Source: an uncultured Bacteroidales bacterium (GTDB taxonomy: Bacteria; Bacteroidota; Bacteroidia; Bacteroidales; Muribaculaceae). From it: a stretch of DNA of 34,858 nucleotides. The notes beneath the pieces were generated by a model. It was not told the origin of the DNA, did no database searches, and saw only the letters and a program-made list of their open reading frames with translations. The translations under genes and the position numbers were made by a program. This document shows positions 9,327-22,125 of the stretch, piece by piece. The stretch is from contig CAMTKF010000029.1 in NCBI GenBank assembly GCA_947072905.1, positions 1-34,858 of the forward strand, in the 5' to 3' direction. Each line of letters begins with the position of its first letter. Positions within the stretch are counted from its first letter, which is position 1.

Positions 9327-10844
9327 ATGTTTACTATTTTTCATGGCTTCCATCTTGTAGAAGCTTATCACGAATGGAAAAAAGAGCATCGCAGTAATAA
9401 GAATCCTATGGGATTGAAGGTGCTCAAGCTTGTGATCGCTGTTGCAGTGGCATTGTTCCTGTGGATAGCGCCGTCTGAATTTTACGGACTTCCCGGCCTT
9501 AACGCCGTTCAGCACCGCGTGCTGTCGATTTTTGCCTTTGCAGCGCTGATGTGGCTCTTTGACAGCGTGCCGGCCTGGACCACTTCTTTGCTTGTGGTTG
9601 TGCTGTTGCTGTTCTGCACTTCTGACAGTGCCTTGTGGTTCTTCCAGACCGACTATGCCACGGGCACTAAGTTTGAGAATCTGGTGAGCAATACCGCCCT
9701 GCTGCATTGCTTTGCCGACCCCACCATCATGCTGTTTATCGGCGGTTTTATCGTTGCTATCGCCGCTACCAAGAGCGGCCTCGACGTCAAGCTGGCCAAG
9801 GTGATGCTGGCGCCTTTCGGCACCAAATCTGAGACTGTGCTGCTGGGCTTCCTGCTCGTTACAGCCGTATTCTCAATGTTCATAAGCAATACTGCCACCG
9901 CAGCCATGATGCTCACCTTCCTGTCGCCCGTGCTCAAGGCACTTCCTGCCGACGGCAAGGGTAAGATAGGTCTGGCTCTGGCCATTCCGGTGGGTGCCAA
10001 TATCGGTGGTATCGGTACTCCTATCGGTACACCTCCCAACGCTATTGCTCTGAAGTTCCTCAACGACCCCGCCGGTATGGACCTCGGCATAGGTTTCGGC
10101 CAGTGGATGATGGTGATGGTACCCTTCACCCTGGTTATGCTCTTCATAGCCTGGATTGTGCTGAAGAAGCTCTTCCCCTTCAAGCAGAAAACAATCCACC
10201 TCGAAATCGAATCTCACCACGAAGGCAGCTGGAAGGATGTGCTCGTGTACGTCACATTCATATTCACCGTGGGCCTGTGGCTCACCGACTCTGTTACCGG
10301 TGTCAATGCCAACGTAGTGGCCATGCTGCCGCTGGGTGTGCTGTGTATGGCAGGCGTAATCACCAAGCGCGACCTTGAACAGATATCTTGGAGCATCCTG
10401 TGGATGATTGCCGGTGCGTTTGCCGTAGGTGTGGCCATGCGTCAGTCGGGCCTTGCCGAATGTATGATTGCCGCCATTCCGTTCAACGAATGGTCGCCGC
10501 TGTTGGTTATTATCGGCTCGGGACTCCTGTGCTACCTTATGGCCAACTTCATCAGCCATACCGCTACAGCCGCCCTGTTTGTTCCCATCCTTGCCATCGC
10601 CGGCACCTCGATGTCAGAAAACCTCGCGGCATTTGGCGGCGTATCAACCCTGCTTATCGGTGTAGCCATCTGCTCATCGCTGGCCATGGTGCTCCCCATC
10701 TCCACACCTCCCAATGCCCTTGCCGATGCTACAGGCTTCATCAAGCAGAAGTATATGGTTACAACCGGTCTTATACTTGGTCTTATCGGTTTGTTGCTTG
10801 GCTATCTGGTACTGATATTCTGCGGCATAAACGGAGTGTTCTAA
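9327..10844 (+). CDS. DASS/SLC13 family sodium:dicarboxylate-type symporter
   Basis: The 505-residue protein has about 11-13 membrane helices. The two inverted DASS repeats are recognisable: SNTATAAMMLTFLSP (about 189-203) with IGTPPNAIALKF (about 235-246), and SHTATAALFVPI with ISTPPNALADAT near the C-terminus; the first carries the SNT sodium/carboxylate motif, the second has SHT. Family substrates are succinate, other C4-dicarboxylates, citrate or sulfate; the sequence does not decide which. It is the only gene between the cobalamin riboswitch and a terminator, so B12 controls this transporter alone. A link to B12-dependent methylmalonyl-CoA/succinate metabolism is inference. A role in cobalt or corrinoid-precursor uptake is an alternative. 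Confidence 0.9.
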   Translation: MFTIFHGFHLVEAYHEWKKEHRSNKNPMGLKVLKLVIAVAVALFLWIAPSEFYGLPGLNAVQHRVLSIFAFAALMWLFDSVPAWTTSLLVVVLLLFCTSDSALWFFQTDYATGTKFENLVSNTALLHCFADPTIMLFIGGFIVAIAATKSGLDVKLAKVMLAPFGTKSETVLLGFLLVTAVFSMFISNTATAAMMLTFLSPVLKALPADGKGKIGLALAIPVGANIGGIGTPIGTPPNAIALKFLNDPAGMDLGIGFGQWMMVMVPFTLVMLFIAWIVLKKLFPFKQKTIHLEIESHHEGSWKDVLVYVTFIFTVGLWLTDSVTGVNANVVAMLPLGVLCMAGVITKRDLEQISWSILWMIAGAFAVGVAMRQSGLAECMIAAIPFNEWSPLLVIIGSGLLCYLMANFISHTATAALFVPILAIAGTSMSENLAAFGGVSTLLIGVAICSSLAMVLPISTPPNALADATGFIKQKYMVTTGLILGLIGLLLGYLVLIFCGINGVF

Positions 10845-15129: not shown

Positions 15130-16437
15130 TTATTTTTCTACAGAGAGTATGTACACGGGTTGGGGAGGTGTAGTGGTTACACGCTCACCGTCGCCCTGGT
15201 CGGTCTGCTGTACGTAGATATTGAGCTTTCGGTCGCCGCGCCACAGGTCGTAGTCGAGCGATGGTTCCCATGCGCCTACGCTGAAGTCGGTGAGGTCTGA
15301 GATCTGCCATGGCGAGGATGCGTCGGGACGGTATGCCATGCTCACCTTGCTGCCGCGCTCGGTGTCGCGGAATATATAGAATACTTCGTCACCGTCGGCT
15401 ACCAGACGCGGGCGCGAGATTGGAATCATCTTGGTGCCCCCGCCCGAGAGCGAGAATGGGGTTGAGCGGCGGTTGACCACACTCATGCGCCAGCCGGTGC
15501 CGTCGTTCTCTACAAGGCGATAGCAGGGAATTGAGTCGCCCTGTTCGCGCCAGTATGTCGCAATCATGGGGTGATTGGCGGTGTTGGCAGTCATGGAAGT
15601 CTGGTTGATAAGCTCTGATTTCTGAGGAATCTTCCATGCTATTTCGGCGGTGGCGGCGGTGATGGGCAGTTGGTATGCTGTGCCGTCGCTGCGTTGCCAG
15701 GTCTTGCCGCCGTCCAGCGAGCGGGCGTAGCACAGGTCGTGGTTGGTCTCTACCATCCAAGTCTCGCGCCATACCCACGACAGGTGTATTGTGGAGTCGT
15801 CGCCCACGCACAGCTGCCAATAGGCGTTGCGGTCGCCCTCGCCGTCGAGCAGCACGTCGTGCAGTCGTTCCCAAGTGGCGGTGTCAGGGTCGTATATGTT
15901 TATTACCATATTGCCTCCGCCCGAGAAGCCTGAGCGGTAAACAAACAGCATCTTGCCCGAGGGCAGGGGATAGAATTCAGGATAGGTGACGTCTTTCTCG
16001 TCGCGGCCCACCATAGGTTCGAGCGGCCCCAGCGACAGCGAGCCCGGAGCTATAGAGCGGGCATAGTGCAGCGGATGGCCGTGGTGGTCGAATGCCACGT
16101 GCAGATACCCGTCGCGGTCTACGCCGAGCGATATAATGTTGTGACCGTCAGATACTTTGCCGCGGTAGGCGGTGTGGCGTACTTCCCAATTGTCGGTGCC
16201 GATACGACGCTTGGCCAGAGTGACGAATCCCTCGGGATCGTAGAACGAGGCATACTGCCATCCATCGTGTGAAACGACTGAGGATGAGCGGAATACGGCA
16301 GTGTTGACAGAGGTTGCGCTATATCCCGGAGCTATCTTGCTGAGCGAAGTCTTGAAGTCGGTAGCTGAGGAAGCCAAGGTACCCGCAGATAGCATCATTA
16401 CGAGTCCGGCGATTTTGGCTAATGATGATTGGTTCAT
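15130..16437 (-). CDS. BNR_4 beta-propeller, polysaccharide-lyase-like, secreted
   Basis: A signal peptide (residues about 1-25) leads into a 410-residue BNR_4 propeller. This fold contains ulvan-lyase-type families (PL24, PL25), whose active sites use two His residues about 20 apart. Here His99 (SDGHN) and His118/119 (AFDHHGH) have that spacing, and the following YPEFYPLPSGKMLFVYRSGFSGGGN matches the conserved Tyr/Arg region I associate with those lyases. Substrate is unknown: ulvan is unlikely in a gut organism, so a rhamnose- or galactose-linked uronic acid polymer is more plausible. An unsaturated uronate product would feed the neighbouring kduI/kduD operon. It has its own promoter box and no operon partner. 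Confidence 0.75.
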   Translation of the reverse strand: MNQSSLAKIAGLVMMLSAGTLASSATDFKTSLSKIAPGYSATSVNTAVFRSSSVVSHDGWQYASFYDPEGFVTLAKRRIGTDNWEVRHTAYRGKVSDGHNIISLGVDRDGYLHVAFDHHGHPLHYARSIAPGSLSLGPLEPMVGRDEKDVTYPEFYPLPSGKMLFVYRSGFSGGGNMVINIYDPDTATWERLHDVLLDGEGDRNAYWQLCVGDDSTIHLSWVWRETWMVETNHDLCYARSLDGGKTWQRSDGTAYQLPITAATAEIAWKIPQKSELINQTSMTANTANHPMIATYWREQGDSIPCYRLVENDGTGWRMSVVNRRSTPFSLSGGGTKMIPISRPRLVADGDEVFYIFRDTERGSKVSMAYRPDASSPWQISDLTDFSVGAWEPSLDYDLWRGDRKLNIYVQQTDQGDGERVTTTPPQPVYILSVEK

Positions 16438-16576: not shown

Positions 16577-17497
16577 TTATTTCATTTCGAGGTATGTCAC
16601 CTTGTCCATGTCGCTGTAGTCGAGGTTTTCACCACCCATGCCCCAGATGAACATGTAGTTTGAGGTGCCGGCTGCGGCGTGGATAGACCATTCGGGGTTC
16701 ATCACGGCCTGTTCGTTGTGAAGCCAGATGAGACGGTTTTCCTGAGGTTCGCCGAAGAGGTGGCAGATGGCGTTGCCTTCGGGAACGTTGAAGTAGAAGT
16801 AAACTTCCACACGACGGTCGTGGGTGTGTGCGGGCATTGTGTTCCACACGCTGCCGGGCTTAAGCTCGGTGAGGCCCATCTGAAGCTGACAGGGACCTTC
16901 TTCGAGTACGTTGTTGACGATGAGCTGGTTGATCACACGGTCGTTTGACTCTTCCATCTTGCCGGCTGCAAATGAGTTGGCCTTGATAGAGCCCTTGCGG
17001 CCGTCGATGGTGATAAGCTGAGTCTTGTATTCCTTGTGAGCGGGGGTTGAGTTGATGTAGAACTTGGCGGGATTGGCAGCATCCTTAGAGCGGAAAGTAA
17101 CATCCTTCTTGCCGCGGCCTACGTAGAGGGCGTCCTTGAAGTTGAGTTCGTAATCCTTGCCGTCGACTGTGATGATGCCGGGGCCGCCGATGTTGATGGC
17201 GCCGAGTTCGCGGCGTTCAAGGAAGTATTCGGCCTTGAGGGGATCGATGGTTTCAAGCTTCACGGTCTGTCCTACGGGAATCACGCCGCCGTAGATGATG
17301 CGGTCGTACATCGAGTAGGTGAGGTTGATTTTGTTCTGCTCCATGACGGTGGGCATCATGAAGTGAGAACGGAGCTGTTCGGTGTCGTACTTCTTGAAGT
17401 CGTCGGGATGTACGGCACGCAGCAGCGAGTAGTCGGTCTGTGCCTGCGAGGCGATGGCTGCGCTCATAAGAGCGATAGCGGTTAAGAATTTTTTCAT
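16577..17497 (-). CDS. kduI: 5-keto-4-deoxyuronate isomerase with a signal peptide
   Basis: KduI converts 5-keto-4-deoxyuronate, formed from unsaturated uronic acids, to 2,5-diketo-3-deoxygluconate. The cupin metal ligands are visible: His224 and His226 ([11 protein letters not shown]), Glu231 and His273 (EWSIHAAAG). The body starts [19 protein letters not shown], as in classical KduI. Unlike the classical cytoplasmic enzyme, this one is preceded by a typical signal peptide ([19 protein letters not shown], cleavage before Gln-Thr), giving a 306-residue precursor. The upstream gene, 1 nt away, is a permease and kduD lies beyond it, consistent with isomerisation before uptake. Last gene before a strong terminator. 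Confidence 0.93.
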
Positions 17498-17498
17498 A

Positions 17499-18920
17499 TT
17501 ATTCGATTGATTGTATTTCTGTAGAATTTTTCTGTTCCATGAGTTTCTGGTTGCGGATGATGTGAACGCGGTTCCACCACATCATGCCGCATGCGAGCAG
17601 TACAAGGATTCCGGCTCCGATCCATTTGAGCTGGATGGTGCACCAATAGAGCAGAGCGGCCAGCGGGCTTGAGGCAAAGTCGAGCGAACCGCCTTCGAAT
17701 CCCTGCGGAATGGCCACGGCAGCATCGCCGGTAGCGGCAAATACGTCCTTGGCTGCCAGAGTGAATCCGCCGGCAAGGTAGGTCACAAGGTAGAGGCCCA
17801 GAGTGAGCACTACAAGACCGATGATGAAGGTCTTGATCACATTACCCTTGGTGAACGGAAGTACCAGGGGGAATACGTAGAACATACCGGCCAGTGATGC
17901 CAGGGGCAGGAACTGGTTGCCCGGAAGCACTACTGCAAGCAGCAGGGTGACGGGGATGAGAAGCAGCGACACTACCAGAGTGGTGGGGTGTCCAATAACC
18001 AGTGCGGGGCTCATGCCGATGTTAAGACCGTCGGCGCCCTTGAACTTGCGTGCGATGAGCGAGCGGGTGGCATCGCTGATGGGCTTGAGGCCTTCGATGA
18101 AGAGAACGGTAACGCGTGGTATGAGTTCCATTACGGCACCCATCTTTATGCCAAGACCGAGGATGTAGGGAATCTTGTCGACAATTTCGGCAAAAGAGCT
18201 GCAGGTAAGGCAGCCGATGATTACACCTACCACAACGCCCAGGAAGAGGGGTTCGCCCAGCAGGCCGAATTTCTTCTTCATGCCTTCGGCGTCAATTTCG
18301 AGCTTGTTCATGCCGGGGATGGCGTCAAGGCCCTTGTTGATGGCCCATGCAAAGGGTACGAAACCTGCGCAGAAGGGTTGGGGGATTGAGATACCGTCCA
18401 TGTCCTTGTAATAGCCCTGGAATTTCTTGGCGGTGATATCGGCCAGTACCAGTGTGATGATGTAGCAGATGATGGCGCCGAAGAAGCCCCATGCCAGCGA
18501 CTCGCTCACGAAGAAGATCACAGCGCCGATAAAGGCGAAGTGCCAGTAGTTCCAGAGGTCGATGTTGACGGTGCGGGTAGTCTTGGTGACGAGCATAAGC
18601 AGGTTGACTGCAAGACATACGGGAATAATGAACGCTCCCACGGCAGTGTTGTATGCTACGGCAGCGGCGGCGGGCCATCCCATGTCGAACACCTTGAGCT
18701 GGAGGTCGTAGATTTCAACAACGGTGTTGAGGGCGGGGCCGAGGGCCGATGTAAGCAGGGCGGTTACGATAGACAGACCTACGAAACCGACACCCACTTT
18801 AAGGCCGGCCTTAAGTGCGTCGCCAAACTTGATGCCGATGCACACGCCCAGGATGGTGAAGATGATGGGCATCATCACGGCGGCTCCAAGGCCTATGATG
18901 TAAGAAAATACTTGTTCCAA
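17499..18920 (-). CDS. Orphan PTS galactitol-type IIC permease
   Basis: The 473-residue protein has about 10-12 membrane helices and resembles the EIIC-GatC family (AT superfamily): [24 protein letters not shown] near the N-terminus, [19 protein letters not shown], and [23 protein letters not shown] in the middle. Normal PTS uptake needs EIIA and EIIB proteins plus EI/HPr; none is encoded here and Bacteroidales generally lack sugar PTS. It therefore probably works as an unphosphorylating carrier or channel. Lying between kduD and kduI, its likely cargo is a keto-deoxy sugar acid; that is inference. The frame starts with TTG at 18920, since a TAA closes it eight codons upstream. The short C-terminal tail is polar. 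Confidence 0.85.
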
Positions 18921-18965
18921 TGTGAGGATATTAATATGTTAATGATGTGTTACCATAAGCCTATG

Positions 18966-19000
18966 CCACAGAGCGCGGAGCGGGGCTTCGCAGTCTGTGG
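18966..19000. other. Hairpin between kduD and the IIC gene
   Basis: CCACAGA (18966-18972) pairs with TCTGTGG (18994-19000), with a GC-rich inner part that can add pairs. No U-tract follows, so it may be an mRNA processing or stability element within the operon. Confidence 0.4.
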
Positions 19001-19023
19001 CTGTATAGGGTGTGGAGTCTGTG

Positions 19024-19818
19024 TTATTTGGGCTGTTTGCCGATGTAGGCAAGGATACCGCCGTCTACGTAAAGTACGTGTCCGTTTACGAAGTCTGAAG
19101 CGTCAGAAGCGAGGAACACGGCCGGACCCATGAGGTCTTCGGGAGTACCCCAGCGGGCAGCGGGAGTCTTTGAGATGATGAATGAGTCGAAGGGATGACG
19201 TGAGCCGTCGGCCTGACGTTCGCGCAGGGGAGCGGTCTGTTCAGTGGCAATGTAGCCCGGGCCGATACCGTTGCACTGGATGTTGTGTTCGCCGAATTCA
19301 GAGCAGATGTTGCGTGTGAGCATCTTCAGGCCGCCCTTAGCAGCAGCGTATGCGCTCACGGTCTCGCGGCCGAGTTCGCTCATCATAGAGCAGATGTTGA
19401 TAATCTTGCCGTGGCCTTTCTTGATCATTCCGGGGATAACGGCCTTGGCGCAGATGTAGGGAGCCACGAGGTCAACGTCGATCACACGACGGAAGTCTTC
19501 AACAGCCATTTCTTCCATGGGTATGCGCTTGATGATACCGGCGTTGTTTACCAGGATGTCGATGGTGCCTACGGTCTTTTCGATGTCGGCAACCATGGCT
19601 TTTACTGATTCTTCGTCGGTAACGTCGCACAGATAGCCCTTGGCGTCTATGCCGAGTTCCTTATATGCTTTGAGTCCGCGGTCTACGGTTTCCTGACGTG
19701 AGCAGTTAAAAACGATTTTGGCGCCGGCCTGGGCGAATGCTGTGGCGATGGCGAGACCAATGCCGTAAGCAGCTCCGGTAACAAGGGCAACTTTGCCTTC
19801 AAGTGAGAAGTTTACCAT
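19024..19818 (-). CDS. kduD: 2-dehydro-3-deoxy-D-gluconate 5-dehydrogenase
   Basis: A classical short-chain dehydrogenase of 264 residues: nucleotide loop TGAAYGIG (14-21), NNAG (about 91-94), Ser144 and the Tyr157-x3-Lys161 catalytic pair (SAYAAAKGG). Overall similarity is to KduD/gluconate 5-dehydrogenase proteins; KduD reduces 2,5-diketo-3-deoxygluconate to 2-keto-3-deoxygluconate with NAD(P)H. Being in an operon with kduI settles the choice between the two names. No signal peptide; cytoplasmic. The kinase and aldolase that would finish the pathway (kdgK, kdgA) are not in the window. Confidence 0.9.
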   Translation of the reverse strand: MVNFSLEGKVALVTGAAYGIGLAIATAFAQAGAKIVFNCSRQETVDRGLKAYKELGIDAKGYLCDVTDEESVKAMVADIEKTVGTIDILVNNAGIIKRIPMEEMAVEDFRRVIDVDLVAPYICAKAVIPGMIKKGHGKIINICSMMSELGRETVSAYAAAKGGLKMLTRNICSEFGEHNIQCNGIGPGYIATEQTAPLRERQADGSRHPFDSFIISKTPAARWGTPEDLMGPAVFLASDASDFVNGHVLYVDGGILAYIGKQPK

Positions 19819-19860
19819 GATTATTAAGGTGATTGGTTAATATTTGGTTTGTGAGATTTA

Positions 19861-20844
19861 TCAGTTTATTATTGAAACGGTTATCAGATCGACTTTTTCT
19901 GCAGTAGGCTCCACTTCCACTGCAGGCATCGAAGCCGGAATCAGCACTGTGGTGCCACGCCGTATGGGAGTGACGTTGCCGTCGGGGTCGTGCAGCAATG
20001 CGCTGCCGTCGATGCACACAAATACCGTGAAGCTCTTGCCCTGCGGCAGATCGAGCGTGCCTCGGTTGCCCACCGACAGCAGGGTGGCAAGGAAGTGCTG
20101 GCTGTAATCGAGCACTACATCCTTGTTGAGCGAGGGGGCTACGTTGCTCACGTTCTTGCTGAGGTCGTCGAAGTTGAGCGCGTCAATGCTTTCTTCCACA
20201 TGCAGCTCGCGCGGATTGCCGTCTGAGTCGCGGCGGTCGAAGTCGTATATGCGGTATGTGAGGTCGCTGGCCTGCTGTATCTCGCACACGAAGTTGCCAG
20301 GCCCAAGGCTGTGGATACGACCTGCGGGAATGGGAACCACATCGCCTGCCTTGGCCTTGAACTTATGCAGTGAGCTTATTATGGAGTTGTCGGCTATCTT
20401 GTGGCGGAATTGCTCCTTTGACAGCTTTTCCTTGAAGCCGGCATAGTAGTATGCGCCTTTGGCCGGGGCTATGCTGTACCATAATTCGGCTTTACCGCTG
20501 TCGTTGTGACGCTCGGCGGCAAGTGTGTCGTCGGGATGCACCTGCACCGAGAGATCGGCGTTGGAGTCGAGGAATTTGATGAGCAGCGGGAATCGGTTGC
20601 CATATCGTTCGGTGACTGTGCTGCCGAGGATTTCGGCGGGATGGCGTTTAGTCAACTCGTTGATTGACAGGCCGTCAAACTCTCCGCCGTCTACGATTGA
20701 CTCTTTGCCCTGCAGGGGCGAGATTTCCCAGCTCTCGCCTATATTGTCGCCCTGTGGGGGTATGCCTTTGAAGTCTGCAATGCGGGTGCCACCCCATATC
20801 ACGGATTTAAAGATATTGTGAAATTTAAGAATAGGCAGTTGCAT
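19861..20844 (-). CDS. manA: Class I mannose-6-phosphate isomerase
   Basis: Type I phosphomannose isomerases interconvert mannose 6-phosphate and fructose 6-phosphate with zinc. Diagnostic pieces are IWGGTRI near the N-terminus, the zinc site QVHPDD, KAELWY with the next ligand Glu, and PAGRIHSLGPG with the last His. An in-frame ATG at 20889 exists, but a promoter box (TAACTTTG, 20894-20887) overlaps it, so the ATG at 20842-20844 is taken, giving 327 residues. It is the first gene of the manA-kduD-IIC-kduI unit; kduD follows after 42 nt. Its role in uronate use is unclear; the substrate may differ from mannose 6-phosphate. Confidence 0.88.
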   Translation of the reverse strand: MQLPILKFHNIFKSVIWGGTRIADFKGIPPQGDNIGESWEISPLQGKESIVDGGEFDGLSINELTKRHPAEILGSTVTERYGNRFPLLIKFLDSNADLSVQVHPDDTLAAERHNDSGKAELWYSIAPAKGAYYYAGFKEKLSKEQFRHKIADNSIISSLHKFKAKAGDVVPIPAGRIHSLGPGNFVCEIQQASDLTYRIYDFDRRDSDGNPRELHVEESIDALNFDDLSKNVSNVAPSLNKDVVLDYSQHFLATLLSVGNRGTLDLPQGKSFTVFVCIDGSALLHDPDGNVTPIRRGTTVLIPASMPAVEVEPTAEKVDLITVSIIN

Positions 20845-20886
20845 GAATAATTCGTTGGCTTTAATATAGTGCCGGAGCTTAGAGGA

Positions 20887-20918
20887 CAAAGTTATGAAAA
20901 AAACGTCAATCTACCAAA
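20887..20918 (-). promoter_or_regulatory. Promoter of the manA-kduD-IIC-kduI operon
   Basis: On the minus strand TTTG (20918-20915) lies 20 nt before TAACTTTG (20894-20887), the consensus spacing. It sets the transcription start near 20882 and decides the manA start codon. Confidence 0.7.
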
Positions 20919-20931
20919 ATAAAAAGCTGTA

Positions 20932-22125
20932 TCAATATGAGAGTTCAACTTTGAGCGGGTGACGGCGAGCGGCTGCGTAGTGTTTGAGATATTCGCCCCA
21001 CTGCTCCATCGAGGGTATGTCGGCTCGGTCCCATGCAAAGCCCCACGAGTAGCTGAATGGGCTGTCGGGCTGTACCTTGGCTGTGGCTACGATGTGGCCC
21101 TGGGTCTCGCGAGCCGAGTCGGCCGCCCGGTCAAGCACCACGCCGAGCATGGCACGGCCGTTGTCTTTGCCCTGGGTGGGGTCGGCGTATGCTATGTAGC
21201 CATCGGCGGCGTTGAGTATGGCCGCAGAGTCGTCGCGTCGCGGAAATCCGGCGGCTATGGTGGCCGGGTCCTTAAGGTTGTCGAACCAAACTTTAGTATT
21301 ATTGAGATGCGAGCGGGTGTCGAGGGTGATTATACGGTGCTCGGTGATGGTGTCGCCGGCAAATTCGCGCGGAGCGAAGTCAACCAGTACAGTGAAGCGC
21401 ACAGGGCCGTTGTCGAGTATGGTGGCCTTGTCGTAGCACCAAGCAAAGCGCAGCGAGTCGTTCTCCATCAGAGCGGCCACACCGTCGCCCAGCGTGGGGC
21501 CTACGGCATAGCAGTCCATGCCCAGGCCGTGGTCGAGGTGATATGTGAATGAGTTCTCGAAATCCTTGGCCAGCTTGGGGTCAATCTTGCGCAGTGAGTC
21601 CACTTTGGCCCAGTTGGCCGATGAACATTGCTCGCCGTATAGTATATCGAGTACTGGCTTGTCTTGCGGATGTTTGAAGAATATGTCGTAGCCAAAAGCA
21701 CGCTCGCCGCGACGCTGTGTGGCAGGGCCATACACGCGGAATCCCACCAGCTCGTTTTCCCATGATATGTCGTCGGCGCGTTCGGGGCGCAGGTCGCCCT
21801 CAACTGTCGAGAAGTACGACGGCGCCTGGGCCGAGGGCAGTATGGTGTATGTGGCGGTGGCCGAGGCCGGAGCCGATACCGGGAACACGAGCTTGTGGTC
21901 GTATGTTATCTGTGAGGGAATCTCTGTGCCCCGGGCATCCTTTACGATGCAGTAGGATGAGCCGAGCCTGCTCAGAACAGAGTCGGCCATAAGTTCAACT
22001 GTCTCGGCATTGCGAGCCGCGGGCAGGTCGTTGCTTATGCTGACGGTTATGGAACCGGTATTCTGAGCCGAGGCAAACATTGCCACCGAGGCCATTGTGC
22101 TGAAGATAAGATTTGCGAGTTTCAT
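20932..22125 (-). CDS. DUF4861 family secreted protein
   Basis: A signal peptide (MKLANLIFSTMASVAMFASAQ) precedes about 375 residues that resemble DUF4861 proteins, which occur in Bacteroidetes loci degrading uronic-acid polysaccharides. Supporting stretches are ISWENELVGFRVYGPA, YDIFFKHP, YHLDHGLGMDCYAVGPTLGDG and YSWGFAWDRADI. Catalytic role is not established to my knowledge; a carbohydrate-modifying or lyase-like function on unsaturated uronates is inferred from repeated neighbourhood. It is upstream of the manA-kduD-IIC-kduI unit, each with a promoter, and diverges from pyrG. Confidence 0.8.
   Translation of the reverse strand: MKLANLIFSTMASVAMFASAQNTGSITVSISNDLPAARNAETVELMADSVLSRLGSSYCIVKDARGTEIPSQITYDHKLVFPVSAPASATATYTILPSAQAPSYFSTVEGDLRPERADDISWENELVGFRVYGPATQRRGERAFGYDIFFKHPQDKPVLDILYGEQCSSANWAKVDSLRKIDPKLAKDFENSFTYHLDHGLGMDCYAVGPTLGDGVAALMENDSLRFAWCYDKATILDNGPVRFTVLVDFAPREFAGDTITEHRIITLDTRSHLNNTKVWFDNLKDPATIAAGFPRRDDSAAILNAADGYIAYADPTQGKDNGRAMLGVVLDRAADSARETQGHIVATAKVQPDSPFSYSWGFAWDRADIPSMEQWGEYLKHYAAARRHPLKVELSY

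Follow-up and report, generated by a model that had tools for sequence, protein, structure and literature searches.

The uncultured Muribaculaceae bacterium (order Bacteroidales) of assembly GCA_947072905.1 (2.69 Mb, 94 contigs, 99.92% complete) appears to divide its unsaturated-uronate pathway between two compartments. The isomerase KduI is predicted to work in the periplasm, an orphan galactitol-type enzyme IIC (EIIC) of the phosphotransferase system (PTS) would import the product without phosphorylating it, and a DhuD-like short-chain dehydrogenase/reductase (SDR) would reduce that product in the cytoplasm. We regard this as the best reading of the locus, and as reasonably probable. The three genes are neighbors on contig 29 of the assembly (CAMTKF010000029.1), the 34,858 nucleotides of which were analyzed as a whole and are referred to below as the window (Table 1). 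The proposal is carried mainly by a comparative pattern: among Bacteroidales, KduI proteins with an N-terminal leader are those encoded close to this EIIC.

The window KduI scores 398 bits with PRK00924 (cutoff 250), and a profile search found it to be the single KduI of the source genome. Alignment to 9kd0 and 1xru shows that it keeps the HxHxxRxE motif and a later histidine, which we take to be the metal-binding residues. Its N-terminus is predicted to be a type-I signal peptide. The initial annotation, made from the window sequence, had already claimed such a peptide, and the claim is upheld by the N-terminal sequence, by the comparison with relatives described below, and by the nearest solved chain, 9kd0, the alignment of which begins at Q20 and spans the whole mature protein (E 2.5e-156). 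A second KduI structure, 9kcz, is closer to the leaderless type. A periplasmic location for the window KduI, unlike the cytoplasmic enzyme of the classical route, is well supported as a prediction.

Of 295 Bacteroidales genomes drawn evenly from the order, the source genome included, eight gave EIIC-GAT and 73 gave KduI (72 above cutoff), and all eight EIIC genomes have a leader-bearing KduI 5–175 bases from the EIIC match. A draw of 395 genomes from the phylum gave an EIIC match in four, three of them above cutoff; all three are Bacteroidales, one being the source genome. A scan of named genomes returned at least 583 EIIC relatives; we retained the best 80, so that this set leans to close kin, and its locus titles include Phocaeicola vulgatus, Bacteroides faecis, and Muribaculaceae, among others. 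KduI is present in 75 of these 80 loci; four of the remaining five end within 1.7 kb of EIIC, and the fifth, L011, is truly without a nearby KduI. Scored by our own rule, a leader occurs in 78 of the 79 KduIs lying no more than 3.5 kb from an EIIC and in none of the 66 other Bacteroidales KduIs (0/66), a count that covers related, non-independent rows and leaves out 13 re-fetched duplicate loci and four rows without the core motif (L059, L129, L162, and L164); the KduI fragment matches G011:C251, G131:C219, and G164:C246 also lie outside the leader set. The N-terminus of the one linked KduI that fails the rule (L038) resembles a leader by eye, and one of the 66 unlinked KduIs, the second copy in L049, sits 4.8 kb from EIIC. 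The 79 linked proteins have 27–49 residues before the core, with a nine-residue hydrophobic window of mean 2.0–3.5, whereas the extensions of the 66 unlinked proteins are 8–23 residues long and contain no uncharged window of nine. The association between a KduI leader and EIIC proximity thus appears, at the level of sequence, to lie beyond chance and is strong as a pattern; the survey of other Bacteroidales that the initial annotation had suggested finds the pairing conserved.

G078 and G182, which belong to a single genus, carry the module together with a second, leaderless KduI at a KduI-DhuD-DUF4861 locus. The first metal-site histidine is replaced in both leaderless proteins, and that of G078 has additionally lost the metal-site glutamate and the later histidine; both stand on long branches in the KduI tree. 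G272, from the same genus but without an EIIC match, retains the motif. Because of the losses in G078 and G182, the sole intact-motif KduI found in each of the eight EIIC genomes is the leader-bearing one, in assemblies that are 86–99.9% complete and from which an additional copy could be missing. With this order-draw result, a KduI step in the cytoplasm is difficult to maintain for these EIIC species. The leaderless copies themselves (L127 in G182, L128 in G078) look degenerate or functionally changed, at an otherwise normal locus.

The KduI tree was built from 94 sequences, with the leader group thinned to 29 of 77 and 65 others, cores shorter than 230 residues being left out. The leader label needs three changes on this tree, and well-supported branches force two of them. 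The position of G078 and G182 apart from the main leader-bearing clade suggests two origins of leader-bearing KduI; a single origin is not rejected by the approximately unbiased (AU) test (p 0.354). In L049, the leaderless copy (L049:15204-16061) is nested within the leader-bearing clade, a possible return to the cytoplasm.

The EIIC gene begins with a TTG start codon, and its product belongs to the EIIC-GAT family by sequence (PF03611, 264 bits) and by the fold of its predicted structure. A hidden Markov model (HMM) search found it to be the only EIIC-GAT of the source genome. The initial annotation had described an IIC without EIIA or EIIB, and had named EI, HPr, EIIA, and EIIB genes elsewhere in the genome as the finding that would count against its reading. 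Searches of the source genome with four HMMs, the sole partner families searched, gave no match to the EI N-domain (PF05524), HPr (PF00381), EIIA_2 (PF00359), or PTS_IIB (PF02302); in 14 control genomes the HPr, EI N-domain, PTS_IIB, and EIIA_2 searches were positive in 7, 7, 6, and 7, respectively. An ordinary PTS module was dropped on this four-HMM result, and the uncoupling of the EIIC from PTS phosphorylation is well supported. Outside Bacteroidota, five of five opened EIIC relatives follow EIIA and EIIB; these records were chosen among 40 listed of 450 plasmid records, and a sixth, from Phocaeicola, bears no annotation. Three loci (L013, L022, and L048) from metagenome-assembled genomes titled Paenibacillus, Clostridiales, and Lachnoclostridium encode EIICs 84–86% identical to that of the window, and their titles are probably wrong.

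Four charged residues (K215, K363, D392, and D399) that are conserved across 87 Bacteroidales EIICs are missing from five PTS EIICs. They fall in no hairpin assignable to the pocket, and the idea that one of them marks an acid-binding pocket was set aside. The clearest change at the pocket between Bacteroidales and PTS EIICs is at the tip of hairpin 2 (Q181, P182, and C184); the UlaA ligand residues, taken from the accessible part of the UlaA study (PMC6048161), were compared with the window EIIC by position only. Transport without phosphorylation has a parallel in an E. coli EIIC of the same family, which is reported in the sections available to admit xylose unphosphorylated (PMC10989795).

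The SDR begins with MVNFSLEGKVALVTG and has no leader. It scores 502 bits with PRK07097 (cutoff 369) and misses the kduD cutoff of TIGR01832 (232.7 versus 338.85). Its closest solved chains are 4z9x, 3cxr, 4u8g, and 9kd1 (4e-139 to 5e-135), and 4z9y follows at 1e-46; we take 4z9x to be a DhuD and 4z9y a KduD, and the 3cxr/4u8g/9kd1 group to be presumably DhuD as well. On these sequence matches, the reductase appears to be DhuD-like rather than KduD. The initial annotation had called it a cytoplasmic KduD at the end of a split-compartment pathway: the missing leader agrees with the location and the compartments gain strong comparative support, but the name is not supported.

We propose that enzymes of the GH88/105 families would release unsaturated uronate in the periplasm, where the leader-bearing KduI would isomerize it to 2,5-diketo-3-deoxygluconate. 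The orphan EIIC, as an elevator-type carrier, would move this compound across the inner membrane by facilitated diffusion or ion symport and without phosphorylation, and the DhuD-like reductase, KdgK, and KdgA would complete the route in the cytoplasm. We infer KduI secretion, the substrate of the EIIC and what energizes it, and flux along the pathway; it is gene linkage that points to 2,5-diketo-3-deoxygluconate as the probable EIIC substrate. More broadly, we lean, if only slightly, towards a joint recruitment, in which a PTS permease without phosphorylation machinery and a secreted isomerase would together have become an importer of 2,5-diketo-3-deoxygluconate, with periplasmic isomerization in place of the cytoplasmic enzyme wherever it was adopted.

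Neighboring genes were counted by clustering open reading frames (ORFs) in 85 linked loci of differing length, and the counts are lower bounds because longer antisense ORFs hid genes (EIIC itself was recovered in 82 of 85). They give DhuD in 42 loci, KdgK in 29, KdgA in 24, major facilitator superfamily (MFS) carriers in 24, DUF4861 in 23, and GH88/105 in 25. DhuD occurs without MFS in 41 loci, MFS without DhuD in 23, both in one, and neither in 20, which leaves EIIC and KduI as the constant pair. In 13 loci, Bacteroides and Phocaeicola included, the gene next to EIIC is a divergently oriented, leader-bearing GH88/105 gene, and where GH88/105 diverges in this way MFS often comes after KduI. 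Many other loci are ordered DhuD, (DUF4861), EIIC, (KdgK, KdgA), KduI. In L052 and other Phocaeicola and Bacteroides loci, GH88/105 and pectinesterase genes diverge from EIIC-KduI-MFS, an arrangement with the look of a compact module for pectin products in gut commensals. A GltD-like flavoprotein is encoded in 20 linked loci (L010, L013, L019, L042, L057, L069, and others), often between KduI and KdgK/KdgA, and its partner in five loci looks like the remaining half of an oxidoreductase of the PRK12778 type.

These neighbors bear on two other assignments of the transported compound. The EIIC might carry the unsaturated uronate as such, or a different sugar, with the periplasmic KduI a regulon neighbor whose product enters through an MFS uronate carrier. 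The MFS proteins of the linked loci are of the galactonate/hexuronate kind and often adjoin KduI, and the source genome has one MFS homolog, 57% identical to the KduI-adjacent Bacteroides kind. That homolog, however, stands in a run read by eye as UxaC-MFS-UxaB-UxaA, among galacturonate-pathway-like genes; no such MFS was seen in 61 of the 85 linked loci, on which count MFS was rejected as a constant importer; and this alternative leaves unexplained why the KduI leader is restricted to EIIC proximity. We consider it rather unlikely. Alternatively, the periplasmic KduI could act on saturated glucuronate, galacturonate, or another open-chain uronate, the EIIC importing the resulting keto acid. 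E. coli KduI has a side activity on hexuronates, and pectinesterases are encoded in 10 of the 85 linked loci; against this, the GH88/105 genes, and the 10 loci that encode KdgK together with KdgA in the interval from EIIC to KduI, point to the unsaturated-uronate route, and we judge action on saturated uronates quite improbable.

The source genome contains four GH88/105 matches. Three are strong and, as judged by eye, all leader-bearing, one of them with a lipoprotein-type leader; one leader-bearing GH88/105 gene has genes in its vicinity that by eye are KdgK- and KdgA-like. The only LacAB_rpiB match in this genome is a 159-residue frame of RpiB-like length, which leaves no clear DhuI, and a cytoplasmic DhuI was rejected as an alternative isomerase.

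Several observations weigh against import of 2,5-diketo-3-deoxygluconate by the EIIC after periplasmic isomerization. Besides its leader-bearing KduI, L049 encodes an extra leaderless one from that clade, and the motif is intact in the two. Few independent events underlie the association, and they may amount to one or two gains. None of the 20 window ORFs scanned with Pfam is a GH88/105 gene, and in the 24 linked loci that encode an MFS carrier, that carrier could be the importer. The EIIC falls below the galactitol-specific TIGR00827 cutoff (377 versus 542 bits), which fits an altered function yet weakens reasoning from GatC, and the conserved differences between the Bacteroidales EIICs and their PTS relatives do not identify a substrate. 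Finally, leaders were scored by our rule rather than by SignalP or another published predictor, which favors a reading in which the KduI leader is not secretory, or KduI is held at the inner membrane, within an ordinary cytoplasmic pathway with an unusual importer; set against the long hydrophobic extensions of the linked KduIs and the short ones, without such a window, of the unlinked proteins, this reading is highly improbable.

All six genes of the region lie on the minus strand, in the 5′ to 3′ order DUF4861 protein, mannose-6-phosphate-isomerase-like gene, SDR, EIIC-GAT, KduI, and BNR_4 protein. A single nucleotide separates the EIIC stop codon from the KduI ATG, and the spacers are 103 nt from the SDR to EIIC and 42 nt from the mannose-6-phosphate-isomerase-like gene to the SDR. 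Because of the common strand and short spacers, SDR, EIIC, and KduI probably form a single operon. The arrangement of KduI, IIC, and leaderless reductase given in the initial annotation is borne out by PRK00924, PF03611, and the N-termini; the span it assigned to them (16577-20844) contains this triplet and also reaches into the mannose-6-phosphate-isomerase-like gene. Neither that gene nor BNR_4 was matched in 80 related loci, and both were rejected as module members.

Table 1. Positions in the window of the proposed module and of the genes around it, with the basis of each assignment
Feature	Position	Strand	Length and basis
KduI	16577-17497	-	306 aa; NCBIfam PRK00924
Predicted KduI signal peptide (residues 1-19, cleavage before Q20)	17441-17497	-	Sequence, rule-based test of relatives, 9kd0 alignment
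Orphan EIIC of the galactitol type (EIIC-GAT), putative inner-membrane carrier acting outside the PTS	17499-18920	-	473 aa; Pfam PF03611
DhuD-like SDR reductase, leaderless, predicted cytoplasmic	19024-19818	-	264 aa; PRK07097 above cutoff, kduD below cutoff, solved relatives
Type I mannose-6-phosphate-isomerase-like gene, not conserved in module	19861-20889	-	TIGR00218 above cutoff
DUF4861 / BT3233-family protein, leader-like N-terminus, frequent companion at KduI loci	20932-22125	-	PF16153 and NF058564 above cutoff; neighbor clusters
BNR_4 protein of GH145/PL42 kind (Rha-GlcA cleaving), leader-like N-terminus, downstream of KduI, not conserved in module	15130-16437	-	PF15892; 5muk/5mum/5mvh and 7esk relatives

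DUF4861 occurs in 44 fetched loci, 23 with EIIC and 21 that are KduI loci without EIIC. Its predicted model (pLDDT 90) is beta-rich; GH38, PL26, and alpha-galactosidase-type enzymes match it only in part (TM by query at best 0.51), too weakly to name an activity, and a role based on fold was not assigned. The BNR_4 protein keeps the posterior catalytic histidine (His57, equivalent to His48 of BT3686) and the anterior histidines, with the stretches DGHNIIS and FDHHGH; residues were matched by counting in the 5muk alignment and read against the accessible sections of PMC8377490. Since the posterior rhamnosidase histidine and the anterior lyase histidines are both kept, hydrolase and lyase are not distinguishable here; as a lyase, the protein would yield unsaturated glucuronate beside KduI. 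Outside the module, at 9327-10844, the window encodes a DASS-family sodium-coupled anion symporter (TIGR00785 above cutoff).

The proposal gives the orphan EIIC, already noted in 2018, a candidate function. It names a conserved candidate importer of uronate in gut bacteria, which may be the missing import step for pectin-type sugar acids, offers a reason for the existence of two kinds of KduI, and suggests a path from a group translocator to an ordinary carrier. A review of Bacteroides glycosaminoglycan use describes, in the part available, freed monomers going into the cytoplasm and one putative hexose transporter, with hexokinase, for heparin monomers, and names there no carrier for unsaturated uronate as such (PMC9067506). 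The main text of a B. thetaiotaomicron reconstruction does not contain "KduI," "KduD," or "PTS" (PMC3878776). No paper joining a periplasmic KduI with an IIC was found in open-access text, and a subscription paper may exist; nor was an open-access paper found for 9kd0 or 9kcz. The 9kd0 entry, a leader-clade KduI structure that begins at the predicted mature end, represents earlier structural work on this clade.

Among described systems, the closest gene content is that of the type E kduI-dhuD hybrid cluster of Bacteroidota (PMC12838403, mSphere 2025, as described in the sections available), which likewise pairs a KduI-type isomerase with a DhuD-type reductase and the strains of which often hold GH88/105-type enzymes (UGL, YteR). 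Unlike that cluster, the window has EIIC between both genes; "signal peptide," "pts," and "iic" are absent from the main text of that paper, and "periplasm" appears once, about Dickeya. The carrier itself resembles the single galactitol IIC homolog (TC 4.A.5.1.4) that Zafar and Saier (2018; PMC6281302) reported for five of seven Bacteroides strains, in that both are without PTS proteins and have been proposed as secondary carriers. The accessible text of that account describes an IIC unable to work by the PTS, in monocistronic operons and perhaps a secondary carrier, with no substrate and no KduI link, whereas the window EIIC is linked to KduI. The window EIIC shares its sequence family with GatC (9u82, Leminorella grimontii) and its fold with GatC and UlaA (4rp8, 4rp9, and 5zov); these are PTS group translocators that operate together with EIIA and EIIB (for UlaA, the available part of PMC6048161), in contrast to the window EIIC, for which no partners were found. 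The streptococcal and enterobacterial routes, covered in part by the sections available of PMC12838403, share with the proposed route the same chemistry after uptake, but import di- or oligosaccharides first and isomerize in the cytoplasm, the step that in the window would be carried out in the periplasm.

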